From contig CP131612.1 of the NCBI GenBank assembly GCA_030686115.1, forward strand, positions 1,860,001-1,924,000: DNA of 64,000 nucleotides. Direction: 5' to 3'. The notes beneath the pieces are model-generated. The model was not told where the DNA came from. It saw nothing but the letters and a program-made list of their open reading frames with translations, and searched no databases. Origin of the DNA: Psychrobacter cibarius. GTDB lineage: Bacteria > Pseudomonadota > Gammaproteobacteria > Pseudomonadales > Moraxellaceae. Numbering within the stretch: the first letter of the stretch is position 1; each line of letters opens with the position of its first letter. Made by a program: the position numbers and the translations under genes. Of the stretch, positions 49,942-52,907 are shown piece after piece.

Positions 49942-50931
49942 ATGCCCAAATACCCTTTTTATTCGCAATGGATTGTCGCTATAGGTGCACTGGTTTTTTC
50001 TATAAATGCGTCGGCAGTTACGTTAGACGAAGTAGCCGCAACGAACAAGCTCATAATTAAAGAGCAATCGACCAAAATAGTATCCACCCCGATAGCGTCA
50101 GCGGTTGCAATAACATCGCCTGTATCAACACCAGCCGTGCCGTCAAACTGTATCGCTGACAGTATTATTACAGCGGCTAATCTGTCAGATACGCGTGATA
50201 AGGGGCCTTTTTCGGTGGCTAAGAAAGCTGTTCCTCGTCAGTTAGCCAATGGCTTTGGTGGCGGAACCATTTATTATCCAACCGATGCAGGTGGCTGTGG
50301 TCTGTTAGGCGGAATCGCGGTAGTACCCGGTTATGTGTCCTACGAATCTTCTATTAAATGGTGGGGGCCGCGTTTGGCATCTTGGGGATTTGTGGTTATC
50401 ACCATCGATACCAACTCCATTTATGATGACCCAGAGAGCCGTGCGGCGCAGTTAAGTGCCGCGCTTGATCATATGCTTCATGACGATACGGTAGGCGCTC
50501 AGATAGATAGTACGCGCTTGGGTGCTATTGGCTGGTCAATGGGCGGCGGCGGTGCACTCGAGCTAGCGACAAAACGTCAGACGGTTCGAGCGATTATTCC
50601 GCAAACGCCCTATCACGATAAAGACTATGGCGAAATGAACACGCCTGCTTTATTCATTACTTGCCAAAATGACCGTATCGCCTCAAATAAAAAATACAGC
50701 AGTCGTTTTTATGATAAAGCTACAGGCGCAAAAATGAAGATTGAGATAAAGAATGGTAGCCATTTTTGTCCAAGTTATCGTTTTAATGAGATATTGCTGA
50801 GCAAGCCAGGTATTGCTTGGATGCATCGCTATATTAATGGCGATATCCGCTTTAATCAGTTTTTATGTAGTAACGACAACTATGGCAACAATCCTCGTAT
50901 ATCCGCTTACGACTATAAAAACTGCTCATAA
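49942..50931 (+). CDS. Secreted polyester hydrolase / cutinase-like enzyme (PETase-like)
   Basis: Alpha/beta hydrolase of 329 residues from ATG 49942. A signal peptide (residues 1-25, SINASA|VT) marks it as exported. The core closely follows the PETase/cutinase family: GFGGGTIYYP, VVPGY with the oxyanion Tyr131, SSIKWWGPRLASWGFVVITI, nucleophile S199 in GWSMGGGG, D244 in CQNDRIA and H274 in NGSHFC. Cys241 and Cys276 flank the triad exactly where the extra disulfide of Ideonella PETase lies, and Cys309-Cys328 match the C-terminal disulfide. Two more cysteines (70 and 119) could form a third bond. Position 224 is Tyr where PETase has the mobile Trp185. The closest family I know is the cold-adapted Moraxella TA144 enzyme. 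Natural substrates may be cutin-like esters or lipids. No MHETase gene is near. Confidence 0.9.
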   Translation: MPKYPFYSQWIVAIGALVFSINASAVTLDEVAATNKLIIKEQSTKIVSTPIASAVAITSPVSTPAVPSNCIADSIITAANLSDTRDKGPFSVAKKAVPRQLANGFGGGTIYYPTDAGGCGLLGGIAVVPGYVSYESSIKWWGPRLASWGFVVITIDTNSIYDDPESRAAQLSAALDHMLHDDTVGAQIDSTRLGAIGWSMGGGGALELATKRQTVRAIIPQTPYHDKDYGEMNTPALFITCQNDRIASNKKYSSRFYDKATGAKMKIEIKNGSHFCPSYRFNEILLSKPGIAWMHRYINGDIRFNQFLCSNDNYGNNPRISAYDYKNCS

Positions 50932-51067: not shown

Positions 51068-51862
51068 TTATTCACAGCTCGCTTTGCCAGTGCGATGATT
51101 CACAGCACCATTGGCGGCTAATAGCTTTTGCATATCAACCAAATCTCGCGAACACGCATATGAATAGGTACCTTGATTATACGAGCCCATTTTTTTGTCT
51201 TTGGTCGTTGCCACTAGATTTGGATTAGCACCTTGCGCCAATAAATATTTGACAGTTTCAAGGCGATTATTACTAGCTGCAACCATAATCAAGGTTTCAC
51301 CATCACTTTCTACCGTCTGATCATTTAAGTCCACAGGCGCTTTTTCATTCAATAACGTATGTACTTTTTTGACAATATTGGTATTTTTTCCCAGTACAGC
51401 AGATTTCATGACGTTATACACATCACCGTCATCTTTAGCATAGATATCAGCGCCTTTACTGACTAAATAATCTACCATATCTTCATAGCCGATAAAGGCA
51501 GCCCAGCCTAACGCCGTTTGGTTTAGGCTACCTGTATCTTTTACTTCTAAGTCTTGACCATTGTTAACCATGTATTTGACCGTGGCTAGATCACCATGTT
51601 TTACGGCGTCAAACCAAGTAGCATCTGCACCTGTAGAAGGTTTGTCATAAAACACACGCCAAGAAAGTTTGTTTTGATTGGCAAGATCAAAATTCTCAGT
51701 AGTGCTGAAACGAAAACCCACTTGTGGGACTGGTGCAGTTTGAGCAGCTTGGATAGTGTCCATTTTAGTGACGCTGTTATCATTGTTTAGGCTTGAGCAA
51801 CCTGCTAATAACATCGTTGCCATAACCGCTGATGCGCTCATTTTTCCAAAAAATCTCATCAC
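51068..51862 (-). CDS. Ankyrin repeat lipoprotein
   Basis: 264 residues. Lipoprotein signal ending in LLAGC (cysteine near residue 22). Residues from about 80 to the end form ankyrin-like repeats: DAVKHGDLATVKYMVNNGQDL, ALGWAAFIGYEDMVDYLVSKGAD, and LIMVAASNNRLETVKYLLAQGANPN. It is probably a periplasm-facing protein that binds another protein. No partner gene is evident. Two adjacent ATG codons at the start are equally possible. Confidence 0.85.
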   Translation of the reverse strand: MMRFFGKMSASAVMATMLLAGCSSLNNDNSVTKMDTIQAAQTAPVPQVGFRFSTTENFDLANQNKLSWRVFYDKPSTGADATWFDAVKHGDLATVKYMVNNGQDLEVKDTGSLNQTALGWAAFIGYEDMVDYLVSKGADIYAKDDGDVYNVMKSAVLGKNTNIVKKVHTLLNEKAPVDLNDQTVESDGETLIMVAASNNRLETVKYLLAQGANPNLVATTKDKKMGSYNQGTYSYACSRDLVDMQKLLAANGAVNHRTGKASCE

Positions 51863-52160: not shown

Positions 52161-52907
52161 ATGACCGATAAAATTCATGATTTAGGGGCAGGATTTTGGA
52201 ATATACGCGGATCTTTTCGCATTGGTGGTGTTCTAAACATTGGTACTCACTGCTCACTTATACAGTTAAACTCAGGAAAGTTTATATTTTTGGATAGTTA
52301 TTCATTGACTGGTGACGTACGCGATGAGGTGATGGCATTAACCAATAATGGTCAAGATGTCGAAGCAGTACTGAACGTCCACCCATTCCATACGGTGCAC
52401 TGTGCACAAATGGCAAAAGACTTCCCGCAGGCGACCTTTTATGGCAGTAGCCGCCACCATAAAAAAGCACCTGAAGTAAAATGGGCAGATGACTTGGTTG
52501 AAAGCGATACGGTCGCCAAGCGTTACCCTGAGCTTAAGTTCTCAATGTCACAAGGCATCCACTATATCTCACCCAATGAGATGATTCATGCAGGCTCACT
52601 ATTAGCCTATCATCCTACCAGTCAAAGCTTGCACGTCGATGATACCTTTATGAGTCCACCGATGAAGTTATTAGAGGCGATATTACCTGAACTGATACTA
52701 CACCCAACGACCAAAAAAGCGCTAAAAAATGAGCCCAATGCAGGCAAGCAATATTGCGATTGGGCAAGCAATTTGGCACATGAATGGCGCGATGTGCGTA
52801 ATTTCTGCGCTGCACATTCCTATTTAGTGACATTCAATGACGGTGAGTTTGAAGTGGCACTATTAAAAGCCATTGATAAAGCCCGTCCAAAATTAGAAAA
52901 AGCTTAA
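52161..52907 (+). CDS. Hypothetical protein, metallo-beta-lactamase-like with altered motif
   Basis: 248 residues, no signal peptide. The order of segments (SLIQLNSGKFIFLDSYSL, then VLNVHPFHTVHC, then SLHVDDTF) recalls the metallo-beta-lactamase fold. The usual HxHxDH is replaced by H74-x2-H77-x2-H80, with H158/D160 as possible further ligands. I do not know this family's function. Start ATG at 52161 follows AAGGAA. A strong terminator follows. It appears to be a single-gene unit next to the NO-response genes. Confidence 0.6.
   Translation: MTDKIHDLGAGFWNIRGSFRIGGVLNIGTHCSLIQLNSGKFIFLDSYSLTGDVRDEVMALTNNGQDVEAVLNVHPFHTVHCAQMAKDFPQATFYGSSRHHKKAPEVKWADDLVESDTVAKRYPELKFSMSQGIHYISPNEMIHAGSLLAYHPTSQSLHVDDTFMSPPMKLLEAILPELILHPTTKKALKNEPNAGKQYCDWASNLAHEWRDVRNFCAAHSYLVTFNDGEFEVALLKAIDKARPKLEKA

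Follow-up and report, generated by a model that had tools for sequence, protein, structure and literature searches.

The window examined here, a stretch of 64,000 nucleotides from Psychrobacter cibarius (contig CP131612.1, positions 1,860,001 to 1,924,000 of the forward strand), encodes a 329-amino-acid protein of the PETase/bacterial cutinase family (PF12740). Its membership is indicated by a profile score above the cut-off and by an S199-D244-H274 triad in an alpha/beta fold with a GxSxG motif, and there is little doubt that it is a serine hydrolase, probably secreted, from the clade of the crystallised enzyme 8SPK, one that would cut aliphatic esters or polyesters and, perhaps slowly, poly(ethylene terephthalate) (PET). 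The open reading frame (ORF) begins at ATG 49942 and ends with TAA at 50929-50931, exactly the limits given in a first-pass annotation made from the letters alone. Although a mechanical ORF call carries the frame upstream as far as GTG 49801, the ATG was taken as the start because a signal-like peptide, MPKYPFYSQWIVAIGALVFSINASA, begins there and close relatives align from that point. A promoter scan returned 6 promoter-like sites where 3.8 would be expected, and no weight was put on them. The features of the gene are:

49942..50931, plus strand: PETase-like polyester hydrolase, probably secreted, 329 amino acids plus stop (ORF, PF12740 and 8SPK match)
49942..50016, plus strand: signal-peptide-like N-terminus, residues 1-25 (M...ASA), a hydrophobic stretch followed by A-x-A, with a helix at 8-17 in the predicted model
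50017..50142, plus strand: linker whose length varies among relatives (residues 26-67), predicted to be largely disordered
50149..50151, plus strand: Cys70, a cysteine in the N-terminal segment found throughout the clade described below (C in 39/39 rows)
50296..50298, plus strand: Cys119, clade-specific cysteine within a small insertion (C in 39/39 clade rows)
50332..50334, plus strand: Tyr131, oxyanion-hole residue by alignment (Y87 of Ideonella PETase, IsPETase)
50533..50550, plus strand: nucleophile elbow WSMGGG (W198-G203), aligned with IsPETase W159-S160, with Ser199 at 50536-50538
50611..50613, plus strand: Tyr224, replacing IsPETase Trp185 by alignment
50662..50673, plus strand: Cys241 to catalytic Asp244, aligned with IsPETase C203 and D206
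50761..50769, plus strand: catalytic His274, Phe275 and Cys276, aligned with IsPETase H237, S238 and C239
50866..50925, plus strand: C-terminal cysteine pair, Cys309 to Cys328, aligned with IsPETase C273 and C289

The PF12740 profile matched residues 86-324 over its positions 21-259 of 263 with 284.5 bits (E = 1e-84, cut-off 28), and the closest solved protein in a PDB sequence search was 8SPK (E = 1.7e-138, 75% identity over 261 residues), scores far beyond chance that bear out the initial reading of a PETase-like hydrolase. The PDB entry is titled 'Crystal structure of Antarctic PET-degrading enzyme' and names its chain 'Lipase 1'. A predicted model of the whole protein (mean predicted local distance difference test score, pLDDT, of 80.8; predicted template modelling score, pTM, of 0.77; 188/329 residues at pLDDT >=90) matches PETase structures in structure comparison; residues 19-62 fall below pLDDT 50 and are predicted disordered, while the remainder folds with mostly high confidence. 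Residues 1-25, read from the translation, look like the Sec signal peptide that had been claimed for them. A match to DLH (PF01738) at 21.2 bits, just above the cut-off of 21, could be taken to indicate a dienelactone hydrolase or a plain intracellular alpha/beta hydrolase, but it spans only profile positions 93-179 of 217. The dienelactone hydrolase family uses a cysteine nucleophile, and with a serine, Ser199, in the GWSMG motif and so partial a profile match, membership there was rejected; the PF12740 score, the signal-like N-terminus, the structure matches and a position in the 8SPK clade of the tree refute this reading as a whole, which has practically no chance of being correct.

The tree and all column counts used 64 rows, 63 of them different, as the single ORF of loci L079 and L091 was entered twice and is therefore counted twice among the 21 PETase rows from outside the genus. 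Included were 32 of the 34 named Psychrobacter loci (L003 and L031 were dropped as frameshifted) and 5 of the 29 further same-genus loci L036-L064 (L042, L044, L049, L062 and L064), many of the others repeating named ones; omitted were L074-L078 (repeats), L083 (no start found), L092 and the second paralogue of G1062. Rooted on the outgroup L087-L090, the tree unites 8SPK with the window and a further 37 Psychrobacter rows in one clade (100/100) with a long stem of 1.01 changes per column, placed among gammaproteobacterial PETases with a poorly supported exact sister (80/70). The IsPETase group lies outside the 53 rows of this clade and the gammaproteobacterial PETases (99/94), and actinobacterial cutinases with 8ETZ lie outside those 53 rows plus the IsPETase group (100/94). 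Long end branches make the placement of L088, L090, 7Z6B, L089, L073, L072 and L033 unsure.

Within the clade the window groups with P. glacincola/P. immobilis, and 8SPK falls inside the Psychrobacter rows, grouped with L042 and L044 (100/97). We take 8SPK to be Mors1 of Moraxella sp. TA144, and the kinship to the TA144 enzyme proposed in the first-pass annotation agrees with this placement and with the identity given above. Because 8SPK nests inside the Psychrobacter enzymes, TA144 is probably a Psychrobacter itself or took the gene from one.

Residue equivalences were taken from a MAFFT alignment with IsPETase (6EQD), in which S160, D206 and H237 correspond to S199, D244 and H274. These residues, the GWSMGGGG motif around S199, Tyr131, the IKWWGPRLAS segment and the exchange of Trp185 for Tyr224 are all found where they had first been placed, and W198 and M200 also agree with IsPETase. 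The oxyanion role of the tyrosine is that known for the family, by whose mechanism Ser199 would be activated by His274 and Asp244 and attack an ester carbonyl bound in a shallow groove at the surface, where Tyr131 would belong to the oxyanion hole; hydrolysis of the acyl-enzyme would follow. Position 224 is Y in 39/39 clade rows, while 23 of the 25 other rows have W there and the remaining 2 have Y. In the scheme of Joo et al., type II PETases reportedly combine the active-site cysteine pair C203-C239 with W159, for which the alignment gives C241, C276 and W198. The IsPETase-like type IIb enzymes of that scheme are said to have Ser at position 238, where the window has F275 (F in 37/39 and L in 2/39 clade rows), a residue that, by alignment, fits type IIa of the scheme.

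Both Ideonella-type cysteine pairs claimed for the protein are present by alignment, C203, C239, C273 and C289 corresponding to C241, C276, C309 and C328. The C-terminal pair is conserved in 39/39 clade rows and 21/21 other PETase rows, and C241/C276 in 39/39 and 17/21. The contention that ordinary cutinases lack the active-site pair held for the three actinobacterial rows, which with 8ETZ make up the four rows without it, but its Ideonella character was given too much emphasis: relatives outside the genus often have the pair, which is therefore neither peculiar to Ideonella nor a sign of PET specialism. Judged from the alignment, it is a mark of the proteobacterial branch, not of PET use.

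C70 and C119 are extra relative to IsPETase, again as first noted. The C119 column is a gap in 25/25 rows outside the clade, and the C70 column holds C in 11/25, with a second cysteine 3-5 residues before it in those of the 11 rows displayed, an arrangement that suggests a change of disulfide partner. Since C70 and C119 are conserved together and the number of cysteines is even, a 70-119 bond is most likely, and three disulfides (241-276, 309-328 and this one) would be expected. The loci among L036-L064 that stayed outside the column counts also have 6 cysteines, except L063 with 7; L064, which was counted, has 7 as well. Compared with gammaproteobacterial rows like L080 and L084, the clade is without five residues after position 179 (also missing in 8ETZ), two after 226 and two near 260. 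In its clade, C70/C119, Y224 and these shortened loops, the window protein is of the 8SPK type.

The most likely natural role is extracellular cutting of aliphatic esters or polyesters (cutin-like, storage or glyceride) at low temperature, and slow PET cutting would be possible, as the title of the crystallised relative says. In the genome of the window, Ring_hydroxyl_A (the ring-hydroxylating dioxygenase alpha subunit) had no match, with controls positive in 4/14, making growth on terephthalate by that route unlikely; Esterase_PHB had none, with controls positive in 2/14; and a tannase (MHETase family) search gave none, with controls equally silent. On the first two of these searches we think an aliphatic ester or polyester the natural substrate and PET a side activity. 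An enzyme for PET assimilation, acting like Ideonella PETase within a PET-to-terephthalate growth pathway, would share the fold and both cysteine pairs, but it is hard to reconcile with the lack of Ring_hydroxyl_A and tannase-family matches (the latter with its silent control), with the lack of any such pathway gene among 8 neighbours scanned with Pfam, or with a gene that is an old resident of the genus, and we consider it very unlikely. It seems rather probable, on the other hand, that the best explanation can be narrowed to a lipase- or cutinase-like esterase for glycerides or cutin, with PET cutting a side activity of no selective role. The chain name of 8SPK, the lack of Ring_hydroxyl_A and tannase-family matches just cited (the latter again under a silent control) and a Phe275 and Tyr224 unlike IsPETase point this way, although sequence cannot tell the substrate and polyester and glyceride cutting are compatible.

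Returning to the broader reading of a polyester hydrolase of the 8SPK clade, the 34 named loci from the genome scan are all from Psychrobacter, the nearest (95-97%) including P. glacincola, P. immobilis and P. cibarius, and the gene occurs in 50/105 genomes of the genus and 46/97 of good quality, own genome included (E <= 1e-20). A Pfam-model scan of 199 genomes of the family returned 31 matches at E <1e-78, all Psychrobacter including the own genome, the best outside the genus reaching 2.5e-29. At E <= 1e-20 matches were found in 21/390 genomes of the order (6 of them Psychrobacter, own included) and 3/369 of the class (own included), and at E <= 1e-15 in 4/398 of the phylum (own included). 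The own genome (2 contigs, nearly complete) has a single PF12740 match. Carriage by phages was rejected, with no match in phages and none of 20 pattern matches in viral contigs confirmed, as was carriage by plasmids, where the five hits were all below 60% identity and from other genera.

Upstream of the PETase gene, and divergent from it, lie genes for a major facilitator superfamily (MFS) transporter and two coenzyme A (CoA) ligases, an acyl-CoA ligase and an acetyl-CoA synthetase. Downstream lie:

51068-51862, minus strand: ankyrin-repeat protein with a lipoprotein-like start, adjoining PETase in 10/34 named loci (tblastn E <= 1e-20)
52161-52907, plus strand: 248-amino-acid protein with no Pfam, NCBIfam or PDB sequence match

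At the same tblastn threshold, the MFS gene and the gene for the 248-residue protein flank PETase in 33/34 named loci (the exception is L023), and the latter marker was found in 11/12 PETase-less Psychrobacter genomes searched. Eight PETase-less loci were compared, and at this site no trace of PETase was found in 8/8 (E <= 1e-5); the acetyl-CoA synthetase was present in 7/8, lying outside or being absent from the stretch compared for L111. The gene for the 248-residue protein is doubled side by side in L106-L109, and the ankyrin-repeat gene also occurs in the PETase-less loci L107, L111 and L112, and partially in L110.

Several points weigh against the proposed function. Presence in only half or so of the Psychrobacter genomes makes the gene accessory, and some copies look broken, with an early stop in L031, a shifted end in L003 and a split into two pieces in G956. 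The acyl-CoA ligase, MFS and 248-residue protein genes keep their order in 8/8 PETase-less loci, which shows a gene gained and lost at a single chromosomal site with no tie to its neighbours; that it shares an operon with the CoA ligases and MFS transporter beside it was rejected because these are on the opposite strand and stay where PETase is missing. The score for NF051441, the NCBIfam bis(hydroxyethyl) terephthalate hydrolase, was 242 bits, under the equivalog cut-off of 520, and given W185->Y224 and S238->F275 the efficiency on PET need not resemble that of IsPETase.

Pairwise ratios of nonsynonymous to synonymous substitution rates (dN/dS) between the window and 10 chosen loci were 0.09-0.22 for PETase, 0.035-0.09 for the acyl-CoA ligase, MFS and NnrS genes (one pair not computable), and for the 248-residue protein gene 0.21-0.30 in the three closest pairs (above PETase), 0.116 with L030 and 0.04-0.06 for the six remaining pairs, with dS near saturation in distant pairs. 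These values indicate that PETase is under purifying selection and evolves more quickly than three of its four tested neighbours. The gene of Psychrobacter sp. PG1 (L009:6001-6987, compared with window 49942-50928) looks mosaic: its flanks match the window mostly at 94-100% nucleotide identity, dipping twice, to 87 and 89%, and its ends (residues 1-75 and from 276 onward) do so at 91-96%, whereas over residues ~76-100 and 151-275 it shares 92-100% with the P. maritimus-type gene (L034) and only 73-87% with the window, a pattern suggesting that the catalytic core was exchanged between species by recombination. Tentatively, and with more doubt than confidence, we picture Psychrobacter as holding its own PETase branch in about half of the species sampled, in which a C70-C119 staple tying the N-terminal segment to the core took the place of the N-terminal cysteine pair that other gammaproteobacterial PETases show, surface loops were shortened, and at least one lineage (L009) had its core swapped by recombination; the genus may thus offer a set of cold polyesterases shuffled by nature.

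These results support the first-pass annotation, which was right on its facts and largely right in its reading. They enlarge the PETases of cold-living bacteria by one whose genome is nearly complete, place the crystallised Antarctic enzyme in a family present in 50/105 of the Psychrobacter genomes scanned, and make available dozens of natural variants, sharing about 60-97% identity with the one in the window, for dissecting cold polyester hydrolase function.

Compared with known systems, the window protein is a well-supported but unremarkable representative of a polyester-cutting enzyme family. The actinobacterial cutinases (7YKQ, a Thermomonospora curvata mutant; L072, Nonomuraea; L073, Streptomyces) and 8ETZ, probably a reconstructed protein since sister entries of its series are titled 'Ancestral PETase', share the family and the C-terminal cysteine pair; they form the outermost PETase groups short of the L087-L090 outgroup, lack C203/C239 equivalents and have H at the W159 position, 7YKQ and 8ETZ being 43% identical to the window. 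IsPETase shares the triad, oxyanion Tyr, W159 and both cysteine pairs, but is only 41% identical over 281 columns, sits on a separate deeper branch and differs at W185->Y224, S238->F275, S214->Y252 and I218->F256 as well as in lacking C70 and C119. A near-identical copy of Ideonella PETase was seen on the 201 kb Piscinibacter gummiphilus plasmid NZ_CP136337.1 (L071); the annotation beside it names a lipase secretion chaperone and a regulator of the AraC family. The Vibrio gazogenes enzyme PET6 (7Z6B; 52% identity over 238 columns) and PETases from other genomes of the same order as the window, such as L080, L081 and L084, have the W198 equivalent and both Ideonella-type cysteine pairs in common with the window, but they carry W (Y in 2 rows) at position 224, lack C119 and have longer loops following 179, 226 and 260. 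Closest is 8SPK, which shares the clade (100/100), all six cysteines and the triad, likewise has Tyr in place of W185 and shortened loops with identical deletions, and differs by 25% sequence divergence and by its place in another subgroup of the shared clade.
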